From the NCBI GenBank assembly GCA_030429235.1, contig JAUIDB010000023.1, positions 1 to 64,000 on the forward strand: a DNA stretch of 64,000 nt, written 5' to 3'. The notes under the pieces were generated by a model that was not told where the DNA came from, searched no databases, and was given only the letters and a program-made list of their open reading frames with translations. The translations under genes and the position numbers were made by a program. This DNA is from Thermoanaerobaculia bacterium (GTDB lineage: Bacteria; Acidobacteriota; Thermoanaerobaculia; Multivoradales; JAIOJS01). Below, piece after piece: positions 39,704-45,343 of the stretch (position 1 is the stretch's first letter; each line of letters starts with the position of its first letter).

Positions 39704-40324
39704 GTGAGCGGAACTACGAGCAACGAAGAGTCCCCACCCGAGGATCACGAGTCCGGCTTTGCTGCGGCTCAACTCGACCGGATCGCCGGCCATGTGCGGG
39801 GGATCATCGAGGAGTTGGGCCTCGATCCCGGAGACCCAAACCTGGCCGAAACGGACCAGCGAGTCGCCCGCCTCTACGCCGAGATGTTCAGTGGCATCAA
39901 GGCCGGCACGCGGCCCAAGGTGACGACCTTTCCCAACGAGGAAGGGTACAAGGCGATGGTCATCGAAATGAAGATCCCCTTCTTTTCGATGTGCGCCCAC
40001 CATTTCGTCCCATTCCACGGGCATGCGCACATGGCGTACATCCCCAAGGACCGGATTCTCGGGCTGTCGAAGTTCTCGCGCATTCTCGAGTTCTACGCCA
40101 AACGACCCCAGCTTCAAGAACGCTTGACGGAGCAGGTCGTCGGGTTTCTCGAGCGCGAGCTCGATCCTCGGGGGGCCATGGTCGTGATCGAGGCACGCCA
40201 CCTTTGCGTGGAGATGCGGGGTGTCAAGAAGACCGGAGCCGTGACCGTGACCTCGGCGATCCGTGGGTCCTTCTATCAAAAGGAGGTCCGGGAGGAATTC
40301 CTGGACCTGATTCGCGGTCGATGA
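39704..40324 (+). CDS. folE: GTP cyclohydrolase I
   Basis: Converts GTP to dihydroneopterin triphosphate, the first step of folate/pterin synthesis. The 206 residues contain the zinc motif MCAHHFVPFHGHAH, the active-site CVEMRGVKK and GLSKFSRILEFYAKRPQLQE. The zinc ligands are present. It starts with GTG directly after a TAGGAT box. The stop overlaps the next ATG (ATGA). No other folate genes are in the window. Confidence 0.96.
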   Translation: MSGTTSNEESPPEDHESGFAAAQLDRIAGHVRGIIEELGLDPGDPNLAETDQRVARLYAEMFSGIKAGTRPKVTTFPNEEGYKAMVIEMKIPFFSMCAHHFVPFHGHAHMAYIPKDRILGLSKFSRILEFYAKRPQLQERLTEQVVGFLERELDPRGAMVVIEARHLCVEMRGVKKTGAVTVTSAIRGSFYQKEVREEFLDLIRGR

Positions 40325-40983
40325 TGGACGCGAAGAGCGTCGAATCGAGGCTTCGGTCGACCACCCGTGGCGGTCGGTTGGTGATCGCGTTCTTTCTGGT
40401 GGTCAGCCTCGGCACGGCATCGATGGTCGCAGCGGGGAAGGGGAAACTCCGAGATCCCCACGACCTGGTCAACATCTACCTCAGCCCGACCTACTCCCAA
40501 TGGCTCGTCGGTGCCACTGGTGAGTTGGCCAGCGACGCTGAGGTCGAGGAGTTCCTCGCGTTGCGGGACGACGACCGAGCCGAGCGCTTCGTCGAGGCAT
40601 TCTGGGATGCTCGTCGCGACCTCGAGGTCGACGGCGGAGAGGAGTCCTCGATGCGGGCCGCGATGGGGCTGGTTCAGAACCCCTTCAGGGCGCTGTACGA
40701 AACCCGCGCCGAGGAGGCAGACAAGCTCTTCTCCGAGTCTGGGTACCTGGGGCGCCGGACGGCGCGCGGCACGATCTTCGTCCTCTTTGGGGAACCTGAG
40801 GAGACCGACTACGAGGTCAATCCGGATCCGGAAGGTCAGCCCATCGTGGTCTGGACGTACGAGAAGAAGCGCCGCGGACTCGATGGCCGAAAGGCTGAGA
40901 GAATCTACCGGTTCATCCGGCAGGGAGATCTCACCGTTCCCTACGTTCCGGGCCGAGTGCGGCCGGTCCGATCGCGGTTCTGA
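40321..40983 (+). CDS. GWxTD-family secreted/anchored protein, divergent
   Basis: The 220 residues have an N-terminal membrane helix or signal (about 20-37, VIAFFLVVSLGTASM) and the family core: EEFLALRDDDRAERFVEAFWDARRD, then an RGTIFVLFGEPEE segment. The name-giving GWxTD is replaced by GYLGRRTARG, so this is a degenerate member. The family is mostly found in Acidobacteriota and related phyla and its function is unknown. It overlaps folE by 4 bases; the KAS III gene follows after 78 bases. Confidence 0.75.
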   Translation: MMDAKSVESRLRSTTRGGRLVIAFFLVVSLGTASMVAAGKGKLRDPHDLVNIYLSPTYSQWLVGATGELASDAEVEEFLALRDDDRAERFVEAFWDARRDLEVDGGEESSMRAAMGLVQNPFRALYETRAEEADKLFSESGYLGRRTARGTIFVLFGEPEETDYEVNPDPEGQPIVVWTYEKKRRGLDGRKAERIYRFIRQGDLTVPYVPGRVRPVRSRF

Positions 40984-41061
40984 TTGCCACGACGGGAGAG
41001 GGCCAGGCGCCATGTCGAACTGCGCCAAGTCGATAGCGGTTTCACCAGTGGGAGGTTTGGT

Positions 41062-42132
41062 ATGACGACACGGGCACTGCTCCTCGGGACCGGGGTGGAG
41101 CTTCCCCCTCGAGTAATCGACAACCATCGACTGGCACGGGTCATGGAGACCGACGACACCTGGATCCAGGAGCGCAGCGGGATCGTCGAGCGGCGTTACG
41201 TCGAGGCTGGAGTGGGGGCTGCCTCCCTAGGGGCCGGGGCCGCTCGCGCGGCCCTGGCGGATGCGGGTCTGTCGGCCGAGACCGTCGACTACGTCGTGTG
41301 CGCGACGATGACTCCCGACCACTACTTCCCGGGGTCGGGCACCTTGATTCAGCATGAGCTGGGGATCTCTCCCCGTCCAGCTCTCGACATCCGGCAGCAG
41401 TGCGCGGGATTCGCCTACGGCCTGCAGGTCGTCGATGCCTTGATCCGTAGCGGAATCGCTCGCACGGTGCTGCTGGTCGGCACCGAGGTCCACTCCGCCT
41501 TGATGCCCTTCTCGGAGGCGACCTGGAGGGCGATCGAAGATCCCGCAGCACCACCGCCTCCGGCCGAGGAGATCGCCTACAACTCCCAATTCCGACACCT
41601 GTTGGTGCTGTTCGGGGACGGCGCCGGAGCCATGGTCTTCGGAGCTCATGAAGCCGATGACGGTCGGGGCATCCTCACCTCGCGGTTGTACGGCGACGGC
41701 GGTGAGAAGGAGATCCTGTATACCCCTGGCGTCGGTTCGGGACACCGGCCGTACGTCAGTCACGAGGGGATCGATCGTTACGATTCGGTGCCGGTGATGG
41801 AGGGGCGCTCGGTGTTCAAGCACGCCGTCACCATGATGCCGGCCGTGACCAGGGAGGTGCTCGAAGCGGAGGGGCTGAGCATCGACGATCTCGATCTGTT
41901 GATCATGCACCAGGCCAATCTTCGGATCAACGAGGCCGCCCGCAAGCACTTGGGACTGCCCCCCGAGCGAGTGCACAACAACATTCAACGCGTCGGCAAC
42001 ACGACGGCGGGAACGCTACCGATCTGCTTCGACGAGGCGCGACGCGAGGGCAAGGCGCCAGAGGGAGCCCTGGTCGCCTTTACGGCCCTCGGGGCAGGCC
42101 TCCATTGGGGTAGTGTGCTTCTCCGAGTCTAG
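41062..42132 (+). CDS. 3-oxoacyl-ACP synthase III family protein (KAS III / FabH-like)
   Basis: Thiolase-fold condensing enzyme of 356 residues with the full triad: Cys114 (RQQCAGFAYG), His283 (MHQANLRIN) and Asn313 (GNTTAGTLP). It joins an acyl-CoA starter to malonyl-ACP or performs a related condensation. A proline-rich insert at about 160-170 (DPAAPPPPAEE) is not usual in FabH. No other fatty-acid genes are adjacent, so the housekeeping FabH role is not certain. A GGGAGG site precedes ATG 41062; the longer frame has no homology. Confidence 0.87.
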   Translation: MTTRALLLGTGVELPPRVIDNHRLARVMETDDTWIQERSGIVERRYVEAGVGAASLGAGAARAALADAGLSAETVDYVVCATMTPDHYFPGSGTLIQHELGISPRPALDIRQQCAGFAYGLQVVDALIRSGIARTVLLVGTEVHSALMPFSEATWRAIEDPAAPPPPAEEIAYNSQFRHLLVLFGDGAGAMVFGAHEADDGRGILTSRLYGDGGEKEILYTPGVGSGHRPYVSHEGIDRYDSVPVMEGRSVFKHAVTMMPAVTREVLEAEGLSIDDLDLLIMHQANLRINEAARKHLGLPPERVHNNIQRVGNTTAGTLPICFDEARREGKAPEGALVAFTALGAGLHWGSVLLRV

Positions 42133-42160
42133 GGGCACCGCGTCGACTTCCGGGCGGCGG

Positions 42161-43219
42161 CTAGTGGGTCAAGGCCTGCTCGATCTGCTCTGTGTCGAGC
42201 ACTAGGGCGGCACCTGGGACCGACTGGGCCGGATCGAGTTCCCAGCGTCGGATCACTCGACGGAAGACTTCCTTGAGGGCTCGGGCTCCCAGTCGGGGTT
42301 GCCGGGTCGCTTCGGTCGCGATGGCGCGGACCGCCGCCGGTGAGAGTACGAGTTCCTTGCCGTAGGTGGCGAAGTACTCCTTCGACTGCTGAAGGCCCGA
42401 GTCGGGTGATTCGAGGAAGATGCGCACGAGTTCTTCCACCGTGAGATCCTCGAGCAGGACGACAGCATCGAAGCGAGACAGGAACTGCGGGCTCATCCCG
42501 TATTCGAAGAGGTCCTCGTTGCGCAGCCACTCCTGAAGTGAGAACTGCAGTTCCTCTCGAACCTGTCCACCCTCGACGACGGTGACCGCCTGTAGGGCTC
42601 CCTTGTCTCGTCCCACCGTGACCCGATCGAACACAGCATCGTAGAGACCCTCGAAGGCACCGGCGCAGACGAAGAGCAGGCCCGAGGAATCGACGGTCTG
42701 GACCCCGCCCCCGGCCCAGTCGGGACGACGGAGCGGGATGGCTTCGTTCTCGATCAGGGTCAGGAGCGCCTCCTGGGCGCGGATTCCGGCGACGTTGGGG
42801 CGATCGCCGACCCGCGAGCGGATCTTGTCGACCTCATCCACGAAGACCAGACCGCGGCGCGCCCGGTCGAGTACCGCGTCCCAGCTCGCATCGGCACCGA
42901 GTTGCTCGCGGCTTCGCTCGAGTAGTCGATGCAGGACGGCCTCACCCGGCCGACCGCGCTCGGCCTCCTCGCCCAGGACGTTGGCGTGGAGCCGCACCAC
43001 GGTCGAGCGGCTCGCCAGCTTGGGATCGCTGGCCAGGTACTCTTCGACGCCACGCATCAGAGTGGTCTTGCCGGTCCCCGAGGACCCGATCATGAGGATG
43101 TGTCCGGTCCGGACGCCTTCCAGCTTCTTGGCCAGTGCGACGGACATCTCCTCGATGGCGTCCCGCTGACCGATGACTCGCTTGCCGAGAACCTCGGCGA
43201 TCTCGAACGGTGTAGGCAT
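42161..43219 (-). CDS. ClpX-like AAA+ ATPase lacking zinc domain, IGF loop and pore Tyr
   Basis: The 352 residues align with the AAA+ core of ClpX: Walker A GSSGTGKTT (45-53), Walker B LVFVDEVDK (124-132), LLFVCAGAFEGL and the SPQFLSRFD sensor region. The N-terminal Cys4 zinc domain is absent. The ClpP-docking IGF loop is replaced by GRDKGALQA (193-201), and the pore GYVG by ANVLGEE (79-85). ClpP docking and normal threading are therefore unlikely, and a remodelling role is more plausible. I use the Met at 43219 because TAGAAT lies 7 bases before it; Met at 43228 falls inside that box. Confidence 0.82.
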   Translation of the reverse strand: MPTPFEIAEVLGKRVIGQRDAIEEMSVALAKKLEGVRTGHILMIGSSGTGKTTLMRGVEEYLASDPKLASRSTVVRLHANVLGEEAERGRPGEAVLHRLLERSREQLGADASWDAVLDRARRGLVFVDEVDKIRSRVGDRPNVAGIRAQEALLTLIENEAIPLRRPDWAGGGVQTVDSSGLLFVCAGAFEGLYDAVFDRVTVGRDKGALQAVTVVEGGQVREELQFSLQEWLRNEDLFEYGMSPQFLSRFDAVVLLEDLTVEELVRIFLESPDSGLQQSKEYFATYGKELVLSPAAVRAIATEATRQPRLGARALKEVFRRVIRRWELDPAQSVPGAALVLDTEQIEQALTH

Positions 43220-43226
43220 GCGGGGC

Positions 43227-43232
43227 ATTCTA
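43227..43232 (-). promoter_or_regulatory. -10 box of a predicted leaderless promoter (ClpX-like gene)
   Basis: TAGAAT on the minus strand ends 7 bases before ATG 43219. It decides the start choice, because the alternative ATG at 43228 overlaps this box. Confidence 0.45.
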
Positions 43233-43272
43233 CCGCCCGCTGCTTGCGTCGGACCGAAGAGGTCGGCTCGGC

Positions 43273-43278
43273 TAGAAT
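43273..43278 (+). promoter_or_regulatory. -10 box of a predicted leaderless promoter (TPR gene)
   Basis: TAGAAT ends 8 bases before ATG 43287 with no ribosome site. It is divergent from the box of the ClpX-like gene 40 bases away. Confidence 0.45.
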
Positions 43279-43286
43279 CCTCCACT

Positions 43287-44270
43287 ATGTCGCGAACCTC
43301 CTCCCCCCGCACTGCCGTCCTCCCCCTCCTTGCGATGCTCCTGCTGAGCTCGGGATTGGCGGTCGCGCAGCCAGTTTCGGTCGCTGCCGCCCAGCGAGCC
43401 GTCGATGCTGGCGATCCCGTCTCGGCGCTCGAGATCACCAAGGTCCTGTTGTCGACACAGCCGGAGAACGCAGCAGCCCTTCTGATTCAGAGTACGGCCC
43501 ACCTCATGCTGGGCGATCTCGAGGTAGGCGAGCAGGAACTCGATCGCGCCCTGCAACTCGATCCTGCGCTTCGTCAAGGGTGGCTGAACCGCGCGGCCTT
43601 GTCGATGGCTGCTTCTGACTATCCAGCGGCGCTGGCGGCCTTCGAGCAGGCCCGGCAGCTCGATCCCGGGGCGGATGACAATCATCTGAATCTCGGTGCC
43701 ACCCGCCTCTTGATGGGCGACCTCGATGCCGCGGCCCAGGACTTCGAGCGCTATCTCCAGCGGTCTGCGGGGAACTCGGAGGCCTTCTATCTGGTGGCCA
43801 CGAACTACGCGATGGGAGGGTACGCTGCCTTCGCTCTCCGCCACCTGCACCAGGCGATCAAGCTCGACGAGAGGTCCCGACGTCGGGCGCGACGAGATCC
43901 CAACTTCGTGTCCCTGGAAGACCATCCCCGATTCCAGGATCTCATGAACACCGACATCTACGTCCTGTCCTCGGACTCCCACCGGGCGGCTCGTGTCTTC
44001 AAAGGCGCCTACGACGGTGGGAGAGGGGTCCTGCTCCAGAGTGTGCTCGACGCTCTCTACGGCTTGCGGGAGCCCTTCGATCCCAATGTCGAGGTCACCG
44101 AGAACTGGGCACTGATCTGGGGGAGATACCGCATCAAACTGCGGCAGGATCTCGAGGGTGGCGTGGTGGAACTGACTGCGCCTCAGAGTGCCTTTACGGC
44201 AACCGAATGGGAGCAGGAGACGAAGCGACTGTTCGATTCGGTCTTCGTGCAGATTCCCAAACGCCTCTAG
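43287..44270 (+). CDS. Secreted TPR-repeat protein
   Basis: The 327 residues have a signal peptide ending near LAVAQP and about four TPR motifs (NAAALLIQSTAHLMLGDLE, LRQGWLNRAALSMAASDYP, DDNHLNLGATRLLMGDLD, NSEAFYLVATNYAMGGYA). A C-terminal domain without a known fold follows (VTENWALIWGRYRIKLRQ). TPRs bind protein partners; this one should act in the periplasm. It stands alone and converges on the VTT gene. Confidence 0.8.
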   Translation: MSRTSSPRTAVLPLLAMLLLSSGLAVAQPVSVAAAQRAVDAGDPVSALEITKVLLSTQPENAAALLIQSTAHLMLGDLEVGEQELDRALQLDPALRQGWLNRAALSMAASDYPAALAAFEQARQLDPGADDNHLNLGATRLLMGDLDAAAQDFERYLQRSAGNSEAFYLVATNYAMGGYAAFALRHLHQAIKLDERSRRRARRDPNFVSLEDHPRFQDLMNTDIYVLSSDSHRAARVFKGAYDGGRGVLLQSVLDALYGLREPFDPNVEVTENWALIWGRYRIKLRQDLEGGVVELTAPQSAFTATEWEQETKRLFDSVFVQIPKRL

Positions 44271-44287
44271 CCAGACGGCGCGATGCC

Positions 44288-45343
44288 TCAGTCTCCGCGG
44301 CGTTGGTCGCGGCTGGCTCGTTGCTGTCGGAGAGTCCTGTACCGCAGTTTTCGTTTGCGCTGTTGCCACAGGGTTGGGCTGAGCCCGACCACGGCGAAGC
44401 AGATCAGCGCGATCACGATCTCCAGCGTCTTGCCCTGGCCCGTGCCCTCGGCGGCGGAGGTCAACAGCGTCGCCAGATAGGTGTACATGGCGATCCCGGG
44501 AATCAAGCCCAGGGCGGTCGAGAGGAGGAAGAGGGGGAAACTCACCCCGGCTAGAGCCAACCCGAAGTTGGCCAGTGGGTAGGGAATGGGCATCAAGCGA
44601 AGCCCAGCGAGCGACCAGAACCCGTGTCGCGAGATCGCCGCCTCGACCCTCCGCAGCTTTCCCCCGGCGATTCCAGCCACGAAGTCCCGCCCCAGGAGGC
44701 GTGCCAACTGGAATCCGAGCGAGCCTCCGAGCAGGGCGCCGATATGGTTCAGGACGATGCCCTTGCCGAACCCGAACACGGCTCCGCCGGCCAAGATCAT
44801 GGGGGAGAGGGGGGCGCCGAGGGGGGCGAGCACCACGAAGGCCGCGAGCAGAACGATCGGGGCCCAGATCGAACCCCGGATGGCGACCAGCATCTCGACG
44901 GCCACCTCGCGATCGAGGTAGTGATTCAGGGGGGTGAACCGCAGCACGAGCGCGGCCGCGATCAGCAGAGCCACGAAGAGGAGGAACCGTCCAGTTCCCG
45001 GCGGGTAGCGTCGGGCGACGAGCACCGGAGGTGGGGTAGCGAGCAACCGGTCGAGTTGGTGGTCGCAGCCAGCGCGAAGCACCACGATGTCGACTCCGAG
45101 GACGCGGTTGGGCAGATCCGCCAGTCGGTCGCGGCACTGGTCGAAGAGGGGCTGGGAAGATGCCTCGCTCTGTGCTGCCAGTAGGCCCCTGGTCAGGTAC
45201 GTCAGAGCGTCGATCAGAGCGAGTCCGTCTTCCTCCTCGGGGGACAACTGCGTCTTGACGTCCTCCCACGCCGTGGTAGCGGAGACCAGGTCGCCTCGAA
45301 GGTAGGCTTCGAGGCCGGCCTGGAGCCTAGTGTCGATGGCCAT
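44288..45343 (-). CDS. VTT-domain (TVP38/TMEM64, DedA-like) membrane protein with soluble N-terminal domain
   Basis: The C-terminal two thirds match the VTT family: APLSPMILAGGAVFGFGKG, GASLG-like GALLGGSLGFQLARLLG, RLMPIPYPLANFGLALAGV and a re-entrant pattern of about six hydrophobic segments. Members are lipid scramblases or transporters. The first 100 residues are soluble and helical (LQAGLEAYLRGDLVSATTAWE, GLALIDALTYLTRGLLAA), similar in pattern to DUF309. The role of the fusion is unknown. A GGGGAG site lies 13 bases before the ATG. Confidence 0.82.
   Translation of the reverse strand: MAIDTRLQAGLEAYLRGDLVSATTAWEDVKTQLSPEEEDGLALIDALTYLTRGLLAAQSEASSQPLFDQCRDRLADLPNRVLGVDIVVLRAGCDHQLDRLLATPPPVLVARRYPPGTGRFLLFVALLIAAALVLRFTPLNHYLDREVAVEMLVAIRGSIWAPIVLLAAFVVLAPLGAPLSPMILAGGAVFGFGKGIVLNHIGALLGGSLGFQLARLLGRDFVAGIAGGKLRRVEAAISRHGFWSLAGLRLMPIPYPLANFGLALAGVSFPLFLLSTALGLIPGIAMYTYLATLLTSAAEGTGQGKTLEIVIALICFAVVGLSPTLWQQRKRKLRYRTLRQQRASRDQRRGD

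Follow-up and report, generated by a model that had tools for sequence, protein, structure and literature searches.

A short ClpX-like AAA+ ATPase family in Thermoanaerobaculia keeps the ATPase core and lacks the pore tyrosine and ClpP-docking loop of ClpX

The window analysed here, a 64,000-nucleotide stretch of DNA from a Thermoanaerobaculia bacterium, carries at 42161..43219 on the minus strand a gene for a short ClpX-like AAA+ ATPase (P0002, clade A of the family described below), assigned from its translation, its ClpX homology and an AF2 model. The frame and coordinates given for this gene by an original prediction, which was made from the sequence, were correct, and the translation yielded 352 amino acids plus a stop codon; an alternative in-frame ATG was found 9 bp upstream of the start. 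A gene for a TPR protein of 327 aa is located at 43287..44270 on the plus strand, divergent from the ATPase gene, and was recognized by a Pfam TPR match, alignment and an AF2 model. Its N-terminal segment was judged by eye to resemble a signal peptide. The product of 44288-45343 is a membrane protein of the DedA type, in which a long N-terminal part precedes the VTT domain; its gene was conserved close to the ATPase gene at many loci. When the region 39704-45343 was compared with three loci from other genera (L054, L056 and L060), the ATPase-TPR pair appeared to have been flipped as a unit, while the order of the flanking folE, GWxTD-like and KAS III genes and of the VTT gene was unchanged around it. 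Neither Rfam families nor tRNA genes were found when the window was scanned for them, and a scan around the ATPase gene found no promoter or terminator.

The homology of the window protein to ClpX extended over nearly its full length (phmmer 3.5e-27 against 6wr2), and ClpX chains were its best sequence relatives among solved structures, with 29.7% identity to the ClpX of its own genome. An AlphaFold model built with 42 family sequences had a mean pLDDT of 92.1, and the solved structures closest to it were again ClpX chains (Z 30.9, 308 residues, 2.8 A), with HslU structures at Z about 26. The NCBIfam ClpX models TIGR00382 and NF003745 matched most of the length of the protein, at 132.3 bits against a cut-off of 359 and at 106.6 bits against 370.75, and the hslU model scored 56.1 bits against 362.45; no NCBIfam model takes in the window protein, the ClpX equivalog cut-offs not being reached. 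Matches to the NCBIfam ClpX models were obtained for all 42 members of A2, the best at E 2.9e-47. The best PHROGs match was phrog_4339, a family of unknown function that we take to be a phage ClpX family (125 bits), and PADLOC gave a DolB match at 26 bits plus lesser ones.

The ATP-binding motifs had been predicted to be intact, and they are. The P-loop strand and Walker A occupy residues 41-53 (43061..43099, minus strand), with GSSGTGKTT at 45-53, and Walker B, FVDEVDK, occupies residues 126-132 (42824..42844, minus strand). The arginine-finger box GMSPQFLSR was found at residues 241-249 (42473..42499, minus strand). K51 of Walker A, D128 and E129 of Walker B, the arginine finger R249 and the sensor 2 arginine R313 were each kept in 63/63 distinct rows of the short family, and the window protein has a ClpX-type AAA+ fold with all of these elements. 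Beside the arginine finger there was a family-wide change from Glu to Gln, with Q245 in 70/70 short rows versus Glu in 17/17 ClpX rows.

In E. coli ClpX, as described in PMC7112951, the substrate is touched by Y153 and V154 of the pore-1 loop, by V202 of pore-2 and by the RKH loop, and most contacts with ClpP are made by the IGF loops. The Cys4 pattern upstream of Walker A was present in 17/17 canonical ClpX rows versus 0/70 short rows, and [ILMV]GF was present in 17/17 ClpX rows versus 0/63 distinct short rows, which bore out the loss of both the zinc domain and the ClpP-docking loop as originally described. By profile alignment, the MGF of the genome's own ClpX fell on D205-K206-G207 of the window protein, within GRDKGALQA, the segment that the original prediction had set against IGF. 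The stretch that replaces the IGF loop covers about residues 203-225 (42545..42613, minus strand) and contains no [ILMV]GF; it was modelled by AF2, with fair confidence, as a beta-hairpin with strands 211-216 and 219-224, which makes it a candidate docking surface. Two further losses go beyond those listed originally, namely the RKH loop, which was seen in 14/17 ClpX rows versus 0/63 distinct short rows and has no counterpart in the window protein, and a pore-2 stretch that is 3 residues shorter in the short family than in ClpX.

The pore-1 loop was placed by a profile-profile alignment (hhalign) of 42 short proteins against 7 canonical ClpX and by an independent MAFFT alignment of 87 rows. 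In the window protein the loop is replaced by residues 79-91, ANVLGEEAERGRP (42947..42985, minus strand). Both methods put GYVG on A86-E87-R88-G89, so that the pore tyrosine is a glutamate, E87, in the window protein; loop alignments of the short family to ClpX are less certain than the core alignment. The claim that the tyrosine is missing therefore stood, whereas the register proposed with it, in which ANVLGEE (A79-E85) was the counterpart of GYVG, was about seven residues too early and was ruled out by the two alignments. GYxG with the pore tyrosine was found in 17/17 ClpX rows versus 0/63 distinct short rows. Because the structural tool reports aligned ranges only, the residue-level placing of the loops comes from the sequence profiles; neither the tyrosine nor the docking loop was restored by the profile alignment or by the structural match. 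Within residues 80-92, none of the 24 distinct clade-A rows outside the family f13 had an aromatic residue, whereas one was present in 5/5 distinct rows of f13, 23/27 of clade B and 4/7 of clade C. In the main B group there is a Phe three residues past the tyrosine site, and in f13 a Tyr near it. Aromatic residues near the pore site are thus missing from the clade of the window protein but present in some sister groups, and the displaced aromatic of clade B, f13 and clade C could still grip substrate.

A canonical clpX was found elsewhere in the genome (4.85 Mb, 92 contigs), on contig C19, where it directly follows clpP and precedes lon, so the window gene is not the only ClpX. The product of this gene has 412 aa and carries Cys4, GYVG, RKH and MGF. 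With a canonical clpP-clpX-lon cluster present, the view that the window protein is not the housekeeping unfoldase is well supported. The genome also encodes an HslU of 459 aa, whose AAA+ module is related to that of the window protein; it has GYVG and a long insert, both of which the window protein lacks. A second short ClpX-like protein, of clade B and 36-38% identical to the window protein, is encoded on contig C45 (L010:4618-6015) and had been overlooked in the original prediction. By eye, this clade B gene lies near chorismate mutase/prephenate dehydratase-like and lytic transglycosylase-like genes.

In a tree of 87 rows, 80 of them different, the 70 short rows were set apart from the 17 ClpX rows on a long branch with support of 100/100, and the short form stands as a family of its own, with the paralogous clades A and B among its branches. 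Twelve positions, including Q245, E190, F226 and E327, were fixed in at least 95% of the short rows yet matched in at most 10% of the ClpX rows, indicating a distinct constraint on the short family. Over 350 codons compared with its counterpart in a congener (G093), the window gene differed at 38 first, 35 second and 181 third codon positions, and this concentration at third positions indicated purifying selection. The short proteins are a family and not a decayed ClpX copy.

Among 147 genomes of the window's class (three fragments included), clade A was found in 63 and a B-type gene in 61; 28 genomes had both, 35 had A only and 33 had B-type only, so pairing of A with B is not obligatory. The distribution was uneven within the class, since genus g2 had A in 0/21 genomes and family f13 had A in 18/18 and no B. 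Beyond the class, a family member was present in 8/220 genomes of the phylum sample. In the family of G367, Desulfovibrionaceae going by its record name, 10/59 sampled genomes had a member, one of them in two pieces. The gene in pieces (G381:C1:79137-80220) consists of two overlapping parts and is possibly broken or a sequencing error. Members were found in 2/198 genomes of the phylum of G367, 1/112 of the phylum of G371, 4/188 of the phylum of G369 (a sample whose genomes overlap with that of G371) and 1/97 of the sampled phylum of G370, thought to be Myxococcota, where the one carrier was G370 itself; the centre genomes G367, G369, G370 and G371 are counted within these outside-class totals. 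The family is thus common in the window's class, Thermoanaerobaculia of the Acidobacteriota, and rare elsewhere apart from Desulfovibrionaceae. Among the matches listed, the named carrier records were mostly Acidobacteria MAGs. One record named Deltaproteobacteria (L091, JAHZIX010000052.1) is the same row as G081 of the window's order, and its name looks wrong. As for mobile elements, four of the six viral loci with relatives were placed in the tree and were canonical ClpX with the pore tyrosine, outside the short family; the plasmid relatives (18 records) were all below 60% identity, and the five listed, at about 31%, were annotated as clpX.

Loci were clustered with a codon-bias gene caller. 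Among the loci shown, it failed to call the family gene, or called it wrongly, in 4/21 A loci and 3/21 B loci, and the adjacency of the TPR gene was therefore recounted with stop-to-stop frames and whole-genome searches. By stop-to-stop frames in 20 fetched A loci, the TPR gene lay just upstream of the ATPase gene in 14 (13 divergent, 1 on the same strand) and was not at this place in the other 6. In whole-genome searches of 72 sampled genomes from the window's order and family f10, with an E-value of 1e-25 or better taken as presence of the TPR protein, A was found in 45 genomes and the TPR protein in 39; both were present in 38, A only in 7 and the TPR protein only in 1. The two genes were within 1 kb of each other in 30 of the 38 genomes, on different contigs in 6 and farther apart on one contig in 2. 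At the genus level, 24 genera had both, 3 had A only, none had the TPR protein only and 2 had neither (Fisher p 0.025), from which it follows that part of the association reflects shared ancestry. At its C-terminus the TPR protein also has a conserved alpha/beta domain of some 100 residues (225-327) with no Pfam match, and a fold search gave no match to this domain among the structures listed, the list being filled by TPR chains.

The partner was not universal. No TPR partner was found in f13, where A was present in 18/18 genomes, or in the main B group, and in the loci clustered no conserved neighbour of the B genes was seen. By eye, the A gene of three f13 loci (L065, L066 and L067) lies just upstream of or near an ftsY-like gene, and an ftsY-like gene is also near a B-type gene in L118. 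The ftsY-like gene was considered as a partner of A (L065 and L066, nearby in L067) and was set aside, as it did not recur in A loci of the window's order. No conserved client gene was found, the TPR partner being absent in f13, in the main B group and in 7/45 A genomes of the order set, and the specialised client that had been proposed for the window ATPase is a guess. The TPR protein is predicted to be exported and would thus be across the membrane, which makes direct contact with the ATPase unlikely, and we infer that it is the best candidate for a partner in a pathway.

MoxR, which we take to belong to an AAA+ clade other than that of the window ATPase, offers a parallel to this arrangement. 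As described in PMC3557215, the gene for the MoxR AAA+ ATPase in MoxR-Bat systems lies in a cluster with envelope-protein genes, including one for a protein with TPR repeats; the window locus is alike in having an AAA+ gene and a gene for a predicted exported TPR protein, whereas the vWA proteins of the published MoxR-Bat description were not seen among annotated genes here. The window protein is like ClpX, the unfoldase of ClpXP, in its nearly full-length AAA+ module, fold, Walker A and B, arginine finger and sensor 2, whereas it differs in lacking the zinc domain, GYVG, RKH and IGF, in its shortened pore-2 and in the Q for E beside the arginine finger. None of the open-licence PMC papers that the literature searches listed describes the short ClpX-like family in its title or in the opening of its abstract. 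Judged by its published description, on which the comparison is based, the nearest published extra short ClpX is ClpX3 of Myxococcus xanthus (MXAN_2743), an extra isolated clpX copy without the N-terminal domain and the RKH motif (PMC11423568). According to the same source, clpP1-clpX1 are essential in M. xanthus, while deletion of ClpX3 is viable with poor growth at 36 C; ClpX3 is reported there to be 43.5% identical to E. coli ClpX, against 29.7% between the window protein and the ClpX of its own genome. Torsins are described in PMC5425593 as Clp/Hsp100 relatives without aromatic pore loops that are thought not to thread. They are eukaryotic, reside in the ER and need the arginine finger of a cofactor, as described there, whereas the window family keeps its own R249, and the likeness is one of analogy.

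The loops that contact substrate and ClpP are absent or rebuilt while the ATPase and ring residues are kept, which suggests a ring that would work independently of ClpP and without processive threading. We hold with moderate confidence that P0002 is a ring ATPase of the ClpX lineage, independent of ClpP, that probably remodels a bound partner without threading it and is linked to the pathway of the TPR protein in the window's order. The short family would have descended from the ClpX lineage, keeping the residues for ATP binding and ring coupling and losing or replacing the parts for grip and docking. A ClpX-type ring would form and hydrolyse ATP without docking on ClpP; the predicted independence of ClpP was upheld as far as the sequence goes, with no IGF loop and no link to clpP. 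Polypeptides would probably not be threaded hand over hand, and by analogy with torsins among the Hsp100 relatives the conformational cycle of the ring may remodel a bound partner. In the window's order the ATPase would most likely serve a pathway in common with the predicted exported TPR protein, and housekeeping unfolding would stay with the canonical ClpX encoded after clpP.

A rather unlikely alternative is that the protein does thread and unfold, by means of a rebuilt pore grip, and either releases its unfolded clients or uses the hairpin at the IGF site to pass them to some protease that is not ClpP. Such a role would be in keeping with the retention of the ring-coupling residues in all rows, with the Phe of the main B group and the Tyr of f13 close to the tyrosine site, and with a modelled hairpin that could dock another partner. 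However, all 24 distinct rows of the window's clade are free of aromatics at residues 80-92, RKH is lost and pore-2 is shortened, and among the annotated minority of neighbour gene clusters no protease gene was recognised as a recurrent neighbour of A or B. It is very improbable that the protein instead joins canonical ClpX or the B paralogue in mixed rings, as a modulator that poisons or retunes them: the shared fold, the retained arginine finger and the canonical ClpX in the same genome would allow this, but A and B each occur alone in many genomes of the class, and an interface of its own is suggested by the twelve positions fixed specifically in the family, one of which is Q245 next to the arginine finger. 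Least probable is an ATPase acting on nucleic acid (as a helicase, a clamp loader or a ring used in the manner of RuvB), since the weak secondary matches to RuvB_N, MCM and ORC models that hint at it were confined to the P-loop region, no DNA-binding domain was matched in the window protein, and ClpX was the best match throughout, by sequence and by structure.

Returning to a ClpP-independent ring that remodels without threading, we put forward, as a plausible proposal that falls short of probable, that these genes form an unnamed bacterial family derived from ClpX which has given up threading and become a non-threading remodeller, a bacterial parallel to the transition in torsins. This family would comprise two or more paralogous clades, A and B among them, standing beside ordinary ClpX across an Acidobacteriota class and sporadically elsewhere, and in one order an exported TPR protein would be its partner in an envelope pathway. 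How aromatic pore loops pull proteins apart is classically taught on ClpX. A natural and widely inherited relative in which the motor is kept and every grip and docking loop is replaced would reveal what in the ATPase cycle does not require threading, and the short family would lend itself to comparison with loop mutants of E. coli ClpX. In databases, many genes of the short family may be labelled 'ClpX', and tallies of ClpXP systems in Acidobacteriota would then be misleading.
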